Part shown: positions 40,046 through 45,905 of the stretch, piece after piece
Position numbering within the stretch: position 1 is the stretch's first letter
How the letters are laid out: every line of letters begins with the position of its first letter
Position numbers and translations under genes: made by a program
Assembly (NCBI RefSeq): GCF_003609775.1
Contig: NZ_AP018049.1
Coordinates: 1,116,001 to 1,180,000, forward strand
Reading direction: 5' to 3'
Source: Prevotella melaninogenica
GTDB taxonomy: Bacteria; Bacteroidota; Bacteroidia; Bacteroidales; Bacteroidaceae
DNA length: 64,000 bases
The notes under the pieces: model-generated
The model's input: the letters and a program-made list of their open reading frames with translations, nothing else
The model's database searches: none
Told to the model about the DNA's origin: nothing

Positions 40046-40228
40046 TATATTAATTATCAGACTGAGAAACAAACATCATCTCAATCTAACAAAATAACAT
40101 ATTTCCTCTACGCAATACAACTTTATGACAGCTTATATCTAATGTTCCCACTTGTTATAAAGGATTGGCCTAAGCCTTGAACCCCACACTTCTATATCAT
40201 AAACTTTAACAAGAATGTTTACTGTTCG

Positions 40229-40260
40229 TTTGGAGTTATGCAAACTTTACTGTATCTTTG
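40229..40260 (+). promoter_or_regulatory. Consensus promoter of tRNA-Arg
   Basis: TTTG at 40229-40232, 20 bp, TATCTTTG at 40253-40260. The tRNA begins 11 bp downstream. Confidence 0.75.
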
Positions 40261-40271
40261 CACTATCATTA

Positions 40272-40345
40272 GGCTCCGTAGCTTAGCTGAATAGAGCGTC
40301 AGATTCCGGTTCTGAAGGTCTTGGGTTTGAATCCCAACGGAGTCA
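40272..40345 (+). tRNA. tRNA-Arg (anticodon CCG)
   Basis: Acceptor GGCTCCG pairs with CGGAGTC (one G-T). The D arm, anticodon stem TCAGA/TCTGA with loop TTCCGGT (anticodon CCG) and T arm TTGGG/CCCAA are all visible, and the discriminator is A. CCA is not encoded. It is followed by two decayed tRNA-like copies before the terminator. Confidence 0.93.
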
Positions 40346-40366
40346 CTAAAAAGTGATAATCCACTA

Positions 40367-40434
40367 ATGACATTTAGCCGAATGAGGTCAGAAAAATGTT
40401 CTGAAGGTCTTGGGTTTGAATCCCAACGGAGTCA
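40367..40434 (+). pseudogene. tRNA-Arg-like copy 1 (decayed)
   Basis: TTAGCCGAATGAG-GTCAGA aligns with the D arm and anticodon stem of tRNA-Arg, and 40398-40438 is identical to 40309-40349 of the true gene over 41 bp (anticodon stem 3' half, T arm, acceptor 3' half). The 5' acceptor strand is lost and the loop reads AAAATGT, without U33. It cannot act as a normal tRNA. Confidence 0.8.
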
Positions 40435-40487
40435 CTAAGAAGAAAGAAATACTCCCTAAAGAGTCTCTAAAAAGTGATAATCCCTTG

Positions 40488-40555
40488 ATGACATTTAGCT
40501 GAATGAGGTCAGAAAAATGTTCTAAAGGTCTTGGGTCTGAATCCCAACGGAGTCA
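40488..40555 (+). pseudogene. tRNA-Arg-like copy 2 (decayed)
   Basis: It repeats copy 1 at a distance of 121 bp with a few changes (TCTAAAGG, GGGTCTGA). The upstream AAAAAGTGATAATCC is shared with the sequence after the true tRNA, so the unit was duplicated in tandem. A trace of a further acceptor end (ATGGAGTCAC) is at 40580-40589. Confidence 0.75.
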
Positions 40556-40597
40556 CTAAGAAGAGAAAACAGAACTCTCAATGGAGTCACAGATTGT

Positions 40598-40638
40598 AAC
40601 AAAGGATGTATGGTTGTTTACTGTTCATCCTTTTTTTG
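40598..40638 (+). terminator. Terminator of the tRNA-Arg transcript
   Basis: AAAGGATG pairs with CATCCTTT, followed by TTTTG. Its position behind both decayed copies implies that they are transcribed with the tRNA. Confidence 0.8.
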
Positions 40639-40689
40639 TTCAACCGAGTTAACTCAGAAATAGATTAATTCATCCTAAAAGAATAGAGT

Positions 40690-41877
40690 ATGCAGAAGAA
40701 AATCAGAATTGGACTACTCCCACGCGTTATCATTGCCATACTGTTTGGATTATTCCTTGGTTATTATCTACCAGATCCAGCAGTAAGAGCGTTTCTGACT
40801 TTCAATAGTATTTTCAGTCAGTTCCTTGGCTTTATGATTCCGCTGATTATCATTGGATTGGTAACACCTGCTATTGCAGGAATTGGAAAAGGAGCAGGTA
40901 AGTTATTGCTTGCAACAGTAGCGATAGCCTATGTAGACACGATTGTAGCAGGCGGCTTGTCCTACGGAACAGGAACATGGTTATTCCCCTCTATGATTGC
41001 TTCCACAGGAGGAGCAATACCACATATTGACAAGGCAACAGAGCTGACACCTTACTTTACTATCAATATCCCTGCAATGGTTGATGTGATGAGTAGTTTA
41101 GTATTCTCATTCATCGCTGGTTTAGGTATTGCATACGGTGGTTTACGCACAATGGAGAATATCTTCAATGAGTTCAAGACTATTATTGAGAAAGTGATTG
41201 AGAAGGCTATTATCCCTCTCCTACCACTCTATATCTTTGGTGTATTCCTCAGTATGACCCATAACGGACAGGCACGACAGGTACTTTTGGTTTTCTCACA
41301 GATTATCATTGTTATCCTCGTACTGCATGTACTCATCCTTATCTATGAGTTCTGCATTGCAGGTACAATTGTGAAGCGCAATCCTTTCAGATTACTATGG
41401 AATATGTTGCCAGCTTATCTGACGGCATTAGGAACAAGTTCGTCTGCTGCAACAATCCCAGTAACATTGAAGCAAACTGAGAAAAATGGTGTAAGCGACG
41501 AAGTGGCAGGCTTTGTTGTACCGCTTTGTGCTACAATCCACCTCAGTGGTAGTGCGATGAAGATTACGGCTTGTGCATTGACAATCTGCCTGCTGACAGG
41601 TTTGCCACATGACCCAGGACTATTCATTTACTTTATCCTCATGCTTTCCATTATTATGGTTGCAGCCCCAGGTGTACCTGGCGGTGCGATTATGGCAGCT
41701 TTAGCTCCCCTATCAAGTATCTTAGGCTTTAACCAAGAGGCACAAGCTTTGATGATAGCCCTGTATATTGCAATGGACAGCTTTGGTACAGCTTGTAATG
41801 TAACAGGTGATGGAGCAATAGCCCTTGTTGTCAATAAATTCTTTGGAAAGAAAAAAGAGTCATCTGCCCTTTCTTAG
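40690..41877 (+). CDS. Dicarboxylate/amino acid:cation symporter
   Basis: A 395-residue inner-membrane transporter of the DAACS (GltP/DctA/SstT-like) family, taking up C4-dicarboxylates or acidic or neutral amino acids with Na+ or H+. About eight helices are apparent. The hairpin HP1 has the serine-rich GTSSSAATIPVTLK near 243, and HP2 with AAPGVPGGAIM near 325 and MDSFGTACNVTGD near 360 form the substrate site. It starts 52 bp after the tRNA-Arg terminator. The exact substrate is not clear. Confidence 0.9.
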   Translation: MQKKIRIGLLPRVIIAILFGLFLGYYLPDPAVRAFLTFNSIFSQFLGFMIPLIIIGLVTPAIAGIGKGAGKLLLATVAIAYVDTIVAGGLSYGTGTWLFPSMIASTGGAIPHIDKATELTPYFTINIPAMVDVMSSLVFSFIAGLGIAYGGLRTMENIFNEFKTIIEKVIEKAIIPLLPLYIFGVFLSMTHNGQARQVLLVFSQIIIVILVLHVLILIYEFCIAGTIVKRNPFRLLWNMLPAYLTALGTSSSAATIPVTLKQTEKNGVSDEVAGFVVPLCATIHLSGSAMKITACALTICLLTGLPHDPGLFIYFILMLSIIMVAAPGVPGGAIMAALAPLSSILGFNQEAQALMIALYIAMDSFGTACNVTGDGAIALVVNKFFGKKKESSALS

Positions 41878-41927
41878 GAAATGTAATAGATATGAAGTTT
41901 GGAAAATGAAACTGTATAAAACAAGAG

Positions 41928-42011
41928 TTACTGTCACTTCTGTCAGGCATAATGATTGTTTAACTAATTAGTTTACAACAAGTTCTCTCCAACTGTTAAA
42001 ATGACAGCAAA
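41928..42011. repeat. 84-bp TGTCA element, copy C
   Basis: TTACTGTCACTTCTGTCA at one end, TGTTAAAATGACAGCAAA at the other, TTAACTAATTAGTTTA in the middle. Confidence 0.8.
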
Positions 42012-42118
42012 GAGAATTAAAACTAAACTAACAGAATATATAGTAAAATCAGCATAATAAGAAATCCTAAAAAGAAACAGCAGACGACCTATCATTAGGC
42101 ATTATCAAAATTAAATAG

Positions 42119-42126
42119 TATCTTTG
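42119..42126 (+). promoter_or_regulatory. -7 box of pepT
   Basis: TATCTTTG, 68 bp upstream of the pepT ATG. Confidence 0.6.
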
Positions 42127-42194
42127 CAAATGACAGGCTGCAATTAGCAGCACTGATTTAGCAAAAAGACATACAACTAAATATCCGTAACATC

Positions 42195-43418
42195 ATGGAA
42201 ATAGTAGAAAGATTTATCAACTACACCAAGTTTGACACACAGTCGGCTGAAGATTCAGAGACAGTGCCAAGTACACCGAAGCAACTAATCTTTGCGAAAT
42301 ACCTCAAGGAAGAACTTGAGCGTGAAGGCCTGAAAGATGTTGAAATGGACGAGATGGGCTATATCTATGCCACTCTTCCTGCCAACACAAAGAAGAAGAT
42401 TCCTACAATCGGTTTCATCTCTCATTATGACACAGCACTTGACGCAAGTGGTGCCAATGTTAATGCTCGTATCGTAGAAAACTACGATGGCGGTGATATA
42501 CAACTGAACCCTAACATGGTTAGCTCTCCACGAATGTTCCCAGAACTTTTAGAACACAAGGGAGAAGACCTCATCGTAACTGATGGTACAACCCTACTGG
42601 GTGCCGACGACAAGGCAGGTATTGCTGAGATTGTACAAGCGATGTGCTTCCTCCGCGATCATGACGAGATTGAACATGGTGACATCCGCATTGCTTTCAA
42701 CCCAGACGAGGAGATTGGTATGGGTGCACATCATTTCGATGTAGAGAAGTTCGGTTGTGAATGGGGCTATACCATTGATGGTGGCGACCTCGGTGAGCTT
42801 GAATACGAGAACTTCAACGCTGCTGGTGCTAAAGTTCTTATCCATGGAGTAAGCGTTCATACAGGTTATGCGAAGGGAAAGATGGTCAACGCCAGCCGTT
42901 TGGCTTGTGAATTCAACAACATGATTCCTTCAACAGAGATTCCTGAAGAGACTGAAGGCTACCAAGGATTCTATCACCTCACCAGCATTGAAAGCCGTTG
43001 TGAGGAGGCAAAACTCAGCTATATCATTCGTGATCACGACCGTGACCATTTCGAAGACCGCAAGCGTTTTATTGAGAATTGTGTAAAGCAGATGAATGAG
43101 AAGTATGGCGAAGGAACTGTTGAGTTGAAGATGAACGACCAGTACTATAACATGAAGGAGAAGATTGATCCTAACATGCACGTTATTGAGTTAGTTCTTC
43201 AGGCTATGCAGCAGGCAAATGTAGCCCCAAAGGTACAGCCTATCCGTGGTGGAACAGATGGTGCACAGCTTTCATTCAAGGGTCTTCCTTGTCCAAACAT
43301 CTTTGCAGGTGGCGTAAACTTCCATGGTCCTTACGAATTTGTTTCAGTTCAGGTAATGGAGAAAGCCATGCAGGTTATCATTAACATCTGCCGATTGACG
43401 GCTGAGTTTAATGATTAA
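42195..43418 (+). CDS. pepT: Peptidase T (tripeptidase)
   Basis: A 407-residue M20B zinc aminotripeptidase. [13 protein letters not shown] holds the first metal His and the Asp, [13 protein letters not shown] the bridging Asp, and [14 protein letters not shown] the catalytic Glu and its neighbour. A dimerisation domain with [13 protein letters not shown] follows. It is cytoplasmic and finishes peptides taken up by the cell, alongside PepP. It ends at a strong terminator. Confidence 0.94.
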
Positions 43419-43452
43419 TCACTGAAGATTAATTAGTTAAAGATATCATACC

Positions 43453-43515
43453 GGAGTTAAACCAACACTTTTATGGATTATATATTTATGTTGGTTTAAC
43501 TCCTTTTCTTTTAAC
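43453..43515 (+). terminator. Terminator of pepT
   Basis: GGAGTTAAACCAACA pairs with TGTTGGTTTAACTCC, followed by TTTTCTTTT. Confidence 0.88.
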
Positions 43516-43634
43516 TATAAGATTTTCAGCTATAGCCCACCTCTCCCACAAACAACACCTACAAAATTACTCATAAAAGGTATTGGTTAAACTTCCAACT
43601 ACCCCACTAACTCCTCTAACTCCATAAAGTATTT

Positions 43635-45905
43635 ATGTCAGAACTACCCGAATTGGTCAAAGACCTTGCTCTTATTCTCGTTGTAGCAGGATTTGTAACA
43701 CTTCTTTTCAAGAAACTCAAACAACCATTGGTATTAGGATATATCGTGGCAGGTTTCCTCGTATCACCTCACATGCCTTATACCATGAGTGTTGTCGACC
43801 AAGGTGACATACAAACATGGGCAGATATTGGTGTTATCTTCTTATTGTTCTCATTGGGATTAGACTTCTCCATTAAGAAGATTCTCAAGATGGGAGCCTC
43901 CCCCATCATAGCCGCCTGTACCATCATCTTCTGTATGATGGCATTAGGTATCATTGTTGGACACAGTTTTGGATGGAAAGAAATGGACTGTATCTTCCTC
44001 GGAGGTATGGTCGCGATGAGCTCCACAACCATTATATACAAAGCCTTCTCAGACATGGGACTCACACAGCAAGGCTTCGCCTCTACCGTGATGAGTGTAC
44101 TTATCTTGGAGGATATCCTTGCCATTGTTATGATGGTGATGCTCAGTACCGTAGCCAGCGGAAACAGTCCTGACGGCGTACAGCTTATTGGTAGCATCAT
44201 GAAGATTGGTTTCTTCCTTGTTTTATGGTTTGTTGTTGGGCTCTTTGCCATTCCACTCTTCCTTCGTTCTGTTCGTAAAATCCTTAACAACGAGACCCTG
44301 CTTATCGTATCATTAGGCTTCTGTTGTCTTATGGCCGTTACATCAACACAGGTAGGCTTTAGTGCTGCCTTCGGTGCCTTCGTTATGGGAAGTATCTTAG
44401 CAGAGACTGTTGAGGCAGATAAAATTATCCGCCTTGTAGATCCGGTAAAGAATCTCTTTGGAGCCATCTTCTTCGTCTCTGTTGGTATGTTAGTAAAGCC
44501 TGACGTTATTGTTCAATACGCTTTACCGATTCTTTTACTTGTCATAACAATTCTTGTTGGACAAGCTTTGTTCGGCACCTTGGGTTATCTTCTCGGTGGA
44601 CAGACCCTTAAGAACGCTATGCGCTGTGGATTCTCAATGGCACAAGTTGGCGAATTTGCCTTTATTATTGCGACATTAGGAAAATCCTTAGGTGTAATCA
44701 GCGAATTCCTCTATCCTGTTGTTGTAGCTGTATCAGTTATCACAACCTTCCTTACTCCGTATATGATTCGTGCGGCAGAACCTTGTTATAACGTCCTTGT
44801 TAAGCATCTGCCAAAACGATGGGTACGCCGTCTTACTCATATTCAGACAAACAGTGCTGGAGAGAGTGCTTCATCTGATAACCATTGGAAAGTTCTTATG
44901 AAGAAGATGATACTCAATACTCTTATCTATGGTATTCTCTCTGCTGCTGTCATCGCTATCATGTTCTCTGCTGCCCTTCCTATATGTAGGGACTTATCTA
45001 TAAAATGGACTGGCAGTCACTGGATTGGTAATGCTGTGTGTGGATTCCTTACAATCGTCTTTATTGCACCTTTCCTACGCTCTATCGTGATGAAGCAGAA
45101 TCATTCAGAAGCGTTCAAAGCACTATGGACAGACCGTCGTATAAATCGTCTGCCCCTCACTGCAACCATCCTTGCACGTGTCCTTATTGCACTCAGTTTC
45201 ATCTTCTACGTATGCAACTATCTCACACGCTTTAAGAATGCGCTGATGATTGCCGTTGCTATAGGCTTGTTGATACTGATGCTTCTCTCTCGTTGGCTTA
45301 AGAAAAGAAGTATTACACTGGAACGTCTGTTTATTCAGAACCTTCAAAGCCGTGACATCGAGGCACAAAAACAAGGAAAGAAGAAGCCACTATTTGCCAA
45401 TCACCTGATTGATCGTGATATTCATATCGCCAATCTTGAACTGCCTGACGACTCGCTTTGGGCTGGTAAGACATTGTATAGTTTGAAGCTCCGAAATCGC
45501 TTTGGTGTGCATATCAGTAGTATTCTTCGTGGCTCCAAGCATATCAATATTCCGAATGGTAGCACAATTCTCTTCCCTGGTGACAAACTGCAAGCCATTG
45601 GTAATGATGAACAGCTTACAAAACTTTCTAAGGCAATAAATGCTGAGTTACAGCCAGAGGTTACCAACATAGAGAAGCATGAGATGAAACTCCGCAGCTT
45701 CACCATCTCTAAAACAAGTCCTTTCATTGGAAAGACGCTTAAAGACAGTGGTATCCGCGACGAATACAACTGTATGGTTGTGGGTGTTGATGAAGGCCAG
45801 AAAAACCTCACACTCATCACTCCTTCCCGCTGCCTGCAGGCTGGTGACGTTCTATGGGTTGTAGGTGAAGAAAAAGACTTAGAACGTATCCTCGCATTAG
45901 GATAA
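43635..45905 (+). CDS. Cation:proton antiporter, CPA2 family with two TrkA_C-like domains
   Basis: A 756-residue inner-membrane protein. The N-terminal antiporter part (about 1-385) has eleven or more helices, with GYIVAGFLVSPH, FSLGLDFS and GGMVAMSSTTIIYKAF (KefB/KefC type). Further membrane helices lie at about 425-560. The C-terminal part holds two TrkA_C-like modules (about 590-675 with IPNGSTILFPGDKLQAIG, about 680-756 with LQAGDVLWVVGEEKDL). No TrkA_N (Rossmann) domain is present, so regulation differs from KefC. It exchanges K+ or Na+ for H+; the ion is not decided by sequence. Confidence 0.88.
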   Translation: MSELPELVKDLALILVVAGFVTLLFKKLKQPLVLGYIVAGFLVSPHMPYTMSVVDQGDIQTWADIGVIFLLFSLGLDFSIKKILKMGASPIIAACTIIFCMMALGIIVGHSFGWKEMDCIFLGGMVAMSSTTIIYKAFSDMGLTQQGFASTVMSVLILEDILAIVMMVMLSTVASGNSPDGVQLIGSIMKIGFFLVLWFVVGLFAIPLFLRSVRKILNNETLLIVSLGFCCLMAVTSTQVGFSAAFGAFVMGSILAETVEADKIIRLVDPVKNLFGAIFFVSVGMLVKPDVIVQYALPILLLVITILVGQALFGTLGYLLGGQTLKNAMRCGFSMAQVGEFAFIIATLGKSLGVISEFLYPVVVAVSVITTFLTPYMIRAAEPCYNVLVKHLPKRWVRRLTHIQTNSAGESASSDNHWKVLMKKMILNTLIYGILSAAVIAIMFSAALPICRDLSIKWTGSHWIGNAVCGFLTIVFIAPFLRSIVMKQNHSEAFKALWTDRRINRLPLTATILARVLIALSFIFYVCNYLTRFKNALMIAVAIGLLILMLLSRWLKKRSITLERLFIQNLQSRDIEAQKQGKKKPLFANHLIDRDIHIANLELPDDSLWAGKTLYSLKLRNRFGVHISSILRGSKHINIPNGSTILFPGDKLQAIGNDEQLTKLSKAINAELQPEVTNIEKHEMKLRSFTISKTSPFIGKTLKDSGIRDEYNCMVVGVDEGQKNLTLITPSRCLQAGDVLWVVGEEKDLERILALG

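Follow-up and report, generated by a model that had tools for sequence, protein, structure and literature searches.

The rtT repeats of the E. coli tyrT operon are tandem repetitions of the tRNA 3′ end behind the tRNA gene. Tyrosine-integrase elements that use tRNA genes leave attR scars, in which the 3′ half of the host tRNA is repeated downstream, and tandem duplication of tRNA genes with decay of the copies to pseudogenes is also known. Here, a tandem array of tRNA 3′ halves behind a tRNA-Arg(CCG) gene of Prevotella melaninogenica is compared with these systems. The array lies in a stretch of 64,000 nucleotides, referred to below as the window, and no published description of it was found in a literature search that lay mostly outside the subscription journals. 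Other genomes are designated by our own labels (G170 and the like).

As the preliminary description of this DNA had stated, the 3′ half of the tRNA recurs behind the gene, with 41 bp identical in copy 1 (the last four of them in the trailer), and recurs again in copy 2 with differences at a few bases. Both copies lack the 5′ acceptor strand and have AAAATGT as the anticodon loop. A 62-nt direct repeat is present at 40298, 40387 and 40508 (spacings of 89 and 121 nt), and a 117-nt repeat pair at 40332 and 40453, with 90% identity, bears out the proposed tandem layout with a 121-bp unit; the spacers are 24 and 57 nt long. When a 41-nt piece of the tRNA 3′ half was compared, ungapped, with both strands of the window, it gave 41, 37 and 35 matches at the array, and the only other place with at least 28 of 41 matches was tRNA-His (29). 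The array is therefore real and not the result of chance. Two degenerate remnants of the tRNA end (a and b in Table 1) had been overlooked; their counterpart is clearer in G1122, where the spacer still reads CCCAACGGAGTCAC. No open reading frame of at least 50 amino acids overlaps 40098-40689. The neighbours by Pfam matches are asnA (- strand), a sodium:dicarboxylate symporter gene and an M20-family peptidase gene, presumably pepT; the name asnA is likewise our assumption. In the intact tRNA (40285-40335), the D loop holds an A and the T loop reads TTTGAAT (by eye), and the usual G19-C56 contact, in what we take to be the standard numbering, looks replaced by A-U.

Table 1. Features of the tRNA-Arg(CCG) locus, in positions of the window.
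Feature	Position	Strand	Basis
Promoter, Bacteroidetes type, TTTG-N20-TATCTTTG	40229-40260	+	Pattern scan; 11 nt upstream of tRNA
tRNA-Arg, anticodon CCG, intact	40272-40346	+	ARAGORN; Rfam RF00005, 59.4 bits
Copy 1, 5′-truncated tRNA-Arg copy	40371-40434	+	3′ half identical to tRNA
Conserved 23-nt core of copy 1, TTAGCCGAATGAGGTCAGAAAAA	40374-40396	+	Pattern/sequence comparison
Remnant a, degenerate tRNA 3′ end and trailer, within spacer	40451-40478	+	By eye against G170, G1122
Copy 2, 5′-truncated tRNA-Arg copy	40492-40555	+	Few changes in 3′ half
Conserved 23-nt core of copy 2, TTAGCTGAATGAGGTCAGAAAAA	40495-40517	+	Pattern/sequence comparison
Remnant b, degenerate tRNA 3′ end after copy 2	40574-40592	+	By eye against G170, G970
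Intrinsic terminator, first seen 3′ of tRNA	40601-40637	+	Fold z -3.31

The promoter before the tRNA and the only terminator after copy 2 were both found as previously described. The pattern TTTG-N18-22-TANNTTTG, which we take to be the Bacteroidetes promoter consensus, has three matches on the + strand of the window, one of which is the array promoter and another of which lies before tRNA-His; the sigma-70 promoter scan does not cover promoters of this type. The terminator stem, AAAGGATG/CATCCTTT, shares three T with the seven-T run at which it stands; the site was unlisted by the terminator scanner, probably owing to the long, partly paired loop. Between the tRNA and copy 2, no terminator-like site was found on the + strand by the scanner or by eye. 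The final terminator has nearly the same sequence in G170, G156, G372, G334, G970 and G1122 (by eye). With a promoter before the tRNA and no terminator until after copy 2, the single transcript of tRNA and copies that had been proposed is plausible in the window's clade, judging from the sequence. This arrangement is not conserved elsewhere, as a T-tailed hairpin directly 3′ of the tRNA (by eye) splits it from the copies in G016, G224 and G228; a shared transcript, if there is one, is therefore not what keeps the core.

The outline of the array is similar to that of the rtT repeats, with the 3′ end of a tRNA in tandem 3′ of the tRNA and probably on its transcript, and to that extent the earlier comparison with rtT stands. 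In contrast to rtT, another tRNA is involved, the units keep a part resembling the D arm and anticodon arm together with the 23-nt core, the unit length varies (88-121 bp), and there is no conserved reading frame. Of the six Rfam matches that 40200-40700 gave at E up to 10, none was to the rtT model.

The copies are not tRNA genes and show no sign of tRNA constraint. They were missing from the ARAGORN output and from the Rfam matches at the gathering score; at a lax threshold, copy 1 reached 13.8 bits with the Rfam tRNA model, below the cut-off of 29, and copy 2 had no match at E up to 10. Folded alone, the copies were unremarkable against shuffles (z -0.49 for copy 1 and z -0.98 for copy 2). 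An alignment was made of 19 copies from ten genomes, leaving out copy 3 of G970 (letters the same as copy 1 there), the cut G403 copy, the truncated G228 copy and the G063 unit without a 3′ half. None of the 13 cloverleaf pairs was changed on both sides, 21 of 247 cloverleaf cells were unpaired, and the five anticodon-stem pairs were all intact in 11 copies, with the stem broken in the other 8. Rejection by the tRNA models and the lack of compensatory changes speak against the tRNA-like RNA that had been proposed. Loss of the copies in close relatives without covariation had been named as a sign against it; there are no copies up to 1 kb from the tRNA in G003 and G026, and no covariation was found, which goes part of the way to that outcome.

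A DNA search with 40347-40570 over 398 genomes of the genus, the window's own included, gave a match in 362, and among the matches listed nearly all of those opened were the tRNA itself. The core pattern was searched in three draws, of 398 genomes from the genus, 399 from the family and 393 from the order; many of the genomes are incomplete, so that the counts given here are lower bounds. The core, TTAGCYGAATGAGGYCAGAAAAA, is present in 12 genomes (the window's, G170, G156, G372, G334, G970, G1122, G016, G063, G224, G228 and G403), in 11 of them at 0-1 mismatch over 23 nt. The twelfth, G403 (Prevotella histicola JCM 15637), came from the DNA search rather than the core pattern and is cut by a contig end, with about 18 of the 23 bases visible. 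The genus draw gave the core at 0-1 mismatch in 9/398 genomes and at up to 3 mismatches in 15/398. The other six were all at 3 mismatches, about as frequent as matches to the reversed control (five genomes), and no genome was at 2 mismatches; the 3-mismatch matches of G003 and G026 lie on a contig other than that of the tRNA. In the family draw, the core was found in 5/399 genomes, all of the same genus, with G970 and G1122 new. The order draw yielded 2/393 when up to 2 mismatches were allowed, namely the window's genome and one 2-mismatch match in another family. Elsewhere in the window's genome, nothing beyond the two copies matched the core within 3 mismatches. The core adjoins tRNA-Arg(CCG) in 10 of the 12 genomes; in G156 it stands beside the attR of an element inside the tRNA, and in G403, where tRNA and copy lie at the ends of separate contigs, we infer that the two adjoin. 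Copies of the tRNA 3′ end within 1 kb of the tRNA were found at 6 of 52 genus loci, all six with the core, by a search with a 16-nt probe and up to 2 errors that did not count shorter repeats of the tRNA end, for example in G035 and G022, and in which six loci held less than 1 kb behind the tRNA.

Copy number differs even among genomes whose PepT is 96-98% identical to that of the window: there are two copies in the window, G170 and G1122, three in G372, four in G970, one in G156, and one with a ruined 3′ half in G334. In the other genomes, G016 has one copy, G224 three, G228 one full and one truncated, and G403 at least one, while in G063 the core is followed by unrelated sequence with no tRNA 3′ half behind. 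The four copies of G970 (1501-1790) form 88-bp units that differ within the core at a single position, which reads T, C, T, C along the array. The 3′ halves carry the species' own acceptor end, which is GGGATC in G224 and G228, GGAGTC in the window and G016, and GGAGTC or a close variant elsewhere. The terminators of G224 and G228, which are sisters on the PepT tree (support 100/100), are wholly different between the two genomes, and within each genome the terminators behind the copies match that behind the tRNA (both by eye), except that the third copy of G224 has at best a degenerate terminator behind it. The units of G016 carry the local terminator too, and the same terminator flanks the full copy on both sides in G016 and G228. 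Copy-number variation, species-matched 3′ halves and local terminators together point to tandem duplication with unequal exchange, and the array has the head-to-tail units, variable copy number and homogenisation with the parent that characterise tandemly duplicated tRNA genes.

On balance, we believe, with slightly more confidence than doubt, that the array is a local partial tandem duplication of the tRNA-Arg(CCG) gene with unequal exchange, so that the simple duplication mentioned earlier as an alternative is favoured in its tandem form. In the route that we infer, a stretch from the D arm to beyond the terminator of the tRNA would have been duplicated head to tail, giving a copy without the 5′ acceptor strand. 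In three other genomes the copy joins the terminator T run directly (TTTTTTATTAGC in G016, TTTTTTCATTTAGC in G224 and TTTTTTGTTAGC in G228), which suggests a short-homology junction. Unequal recombination between the tRNA 3′ half and the copies would then have added, removed and homogenised units, which would account for copy numbers that differ among close species and for 3′ halves that match the local tRNA. In the window's clade, the copies form part of the tRNA 3′ trailer, and transcription from the tRNA probably runs through them as far as the final terminator; their RNA would then be degraded, and maturation into tRNAs is not expected.

Duplication alone does not account for the preservation of the core and its patchy spread. 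Among 15 copies of the window's clade, the mean pairwise difference per site was 0.053 in the core, lower than the 0.260 of the spacer (Mann-Whitney p 9e-5) and the 0.120 of the 3′ half (p 0.014), and among 22 copies of all lineages the p values were 9e-7 (spacer) and 1e-6 (3′ half), G403 being dropped from both comparisons; a pattern located in the core itself had served to select the copies, so the comparison is partly circular and the p values overstate the case. When 3′-half copies were picked without the core at ten loci, the core was within 2 substitutions in 17 of 18, the exception being the G156 attR, although the loci had been chosen earlier and the pick missed two G372 copies and the G334 copy. 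This result and the lack of 2-mismatch matches reduce the circularity and do not remove it. The spacers are unalignable across lineages while the core stays at 0-1 mismatches. Simple duplication with drift does not predict such a core in separate lineages. Independent events would not give the same altered core, one old event needs many losses, and G063 keeps the core in the absence of a 3′ half. In contrast to known tandem tRNA duplications, the altered 5′ part is thus kept across distant species instead of drifting.

On the PepT tree (one gene, 46 selected genomes, all 12 positives included), the core trait needs five changes, at least four of them on well-supported branches. The positives form four groups: the window's clade with G403; G016; G224 with G228; and G063, on a long branch. 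G003 and G026 stand next to G403, and G324, also without copies within 1 kb, stands next to G016. The core may have been gained once and lost many times, or it may have been transferred; both histories are possible. The patchy spread would fit a DNA-level element, in which the core would be bound by a recombinase or another protein and would pass between Prevotella through recombination at the tRNA, the unit being a minimal non-autonomous cassette (88-121 bp). The forced changes on the tree, the near-identity of the core, its restriction at 0-1 mismatch to the neighbourhood of tRNA-Arg(CCG) or an attR, and the anticodon-stem repeats TCAGA/TCTGA, candidate recombinase arms that are whole in 11 of the 19 copies, are all consistent with such an element. 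We nevertheless regard it as highly improbable, because no mobile form was seen, the terminators and 3′ halves on its flanks belong to the host, the stem is broken in 8 of the 19 copies, and the tree rests on a single gene. It is also very unlikely, in our judgement, that the tRNA 3′ half and the core make up a new kind of minimal tRNA-tethered cassette of this length, which would pass from one Prevotella species to another and multiply in tandem behind tRNA-Arg(CCG), either mobilised in trans by the integrases that act at this tRNA or kept because a protein recognises the core.

Preservation of the core could also reflect a functional trailer RNA, in which the core and a hairpin (TCAGAA-loop-TTCTGA) would act in the tRNA-Arg transcript, for example in processing or as a decoy, in a manner reminiscent of rtT. 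In the partly circular comparison above, no other part of the units varies as little as the core, and the array stays between promoter and terminator in the window's clade. For the putative transcript of 369 nt, the fold is better than that of shuffles (z -2.91), but this value takes in the intact tRNA and the terminator, and the copies folded alone do not stand out. Since the T-tailed hairpin lies between tRNA and copies in three genomes, the breaks in the anticodon stem are uncompensated, and the array was found in few genomes of the genus, a role of this kind appears quite unlikely.

An integrase attachment site had been mentioned as a further alternative, and elements do integrate at tRNA-Arg(CCG) in this genus. 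In G156, an insertion of 56 kb has a tyrosine integrase gene right behind the tRNA (Phage_int_SAM_5 and Phage_integrase by Pfam), and the tRNA 3′ half recurs 56 kb away. At least 12 stand-alone 3′-half fragments were found in nine genomes (two each in G099, G020 and G018, and one each in G397, G162, G315, G310, G027 and G156), with the Pfam integrase test made for G156 only and the other fragments classed as attR from their shape. Candidates in G382 and G247 were rejected as a full and a cut tRNA gene, respectively, and those in G024 and G014 are parts of other tRNA genes or of full ones. One left flank is common to G397, G310, G020 contig C37, G018 and G027, and another to G162 and G315 (by eye), so the 11 attR-like junctions stand for fewer element families. 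The twelfth fragment, on G020 contig C22, follows TTTGC and has neither the anticodon loop nor the core. There (about 1011, - strand), a promoter-like CTACCTTTGC runs straight into the tRNA-Arg 3′ half, as if the tRNA 5′ half had been lost.

If the copies were attR scars, each would have been left by an element that used the tRNA and was later deleted, and the core would be the left arm of that element. This would explain both the conserved core and the host-matched 3′ halves, and the array shares with the likely scars of G018, G027, G099 and G156 a host tRNA 3′ half repeated downstream. However, the anticodon loop is kept in 11 of the 12 fragments (TTCCGG in ten, TTCCGC in G027), whereas the copies of the array lack TTCCGG and have a D-arm-like left side. 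The TTCCGG loop is probably the crossover region, and the identity block of an attachment site would include the crossover region used at the tRNA, which that of the copies does not. None of the 12 left flanks aligned to the core clearly better than shuffles. The best, at the far end of G018, was equalled by 102/2000 shuffles and the G020 C22 flank, taken a few bases short, by 230/1000; two real tRNAs used as controls were equalled by 0/2000. The G162/G315 left arm, TTGAATGACAGA before TTCCGG, is slightly like the core (TGAATGA, CAGA), but 238/2000 shuffles score equally. In the window, no element or integrase remnant lies between the repeats, and an element with a tested integrase was found only between the G156 tRNA and its attR; that element sits in the real tRNA and left the copy 120 bp beyond alone. 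Moreover, cores at 0-1 mismatch in the 398 genomes are all at tRNA-Arg(CCG) or beside the G156 attR, three core patterns have no exact match in IMG/VR, and the identical terminators around the full copy in G016 and G228 are as in duplication. The junction is thus unlike those of the examined scars and disfavours an origin from integrase att sites; scars of an unsampled element with a different crossover are what we consider unlikely though conceivable. Our data suggest that not every tandem array of tRNA 3′ halves behind a tRNA comes from integrase scars, and scar and duplication can be told apart by whether the anticodon-loop sequence is kept. The preserved core poses a small puzzle, its 23 nt having been seen next to a single tRNA only and in lineages scattered over a common human-associated genus.

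Several further readings were rejected. The core can be read as ATG AGG TCA GAA AAA (MRSEK...), but the downstream frame differs between groups and mostly ends early, and the 59-aa frame of G228, used as a protein query, gave no candidate. A phage origin was set aside on the IMG/VR result. Of three phage matches to the copy, the one opened (H5) is another full tRNA-Arg gene, with anticodon TCT (by eye), and not an attachment site; of four plasmid matches, the one opened (H2, P. nigrescens) is a full tRNA (by eye). Nor is the array a general habit of tRNAs in this genome: among 30 of its 49 tRNA matches, the tRNA-Arg of the window not being one of them, 3′-end repeats within 1.5 kb downstream occur at four, and all four coincide with another full tRNA gene.

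Some neighbouring observations were also made. In P. histicola G403 (5,710-bp contig compared with window 40690-45905), the block of symporter, pepT and cation antiporter behind the copy is inverted, which marks the 3′ side of the tRNA as a rearrangement point; in G016 and G324, pepT lies on the upstream side of the tRNA. In several species (G035, G027, G022 and G063), the first 250 bp or so behind tRNA-Arg contain a palindromic REP-like motif, GGATGGCTGGCGCCAGCC or a near variant, and after it short repeats of the tRNA 3′ end such as AATCCCAACGGGAT. On G014 contig C129 (around 901-1050), the 3′ end and hairpin of another tRNA-Arg, whose anticodon looks like TCT, recur 90 bp later; this second copy is without a D arm, which makes it a partial duplication of a similar kind at a different tRNA.
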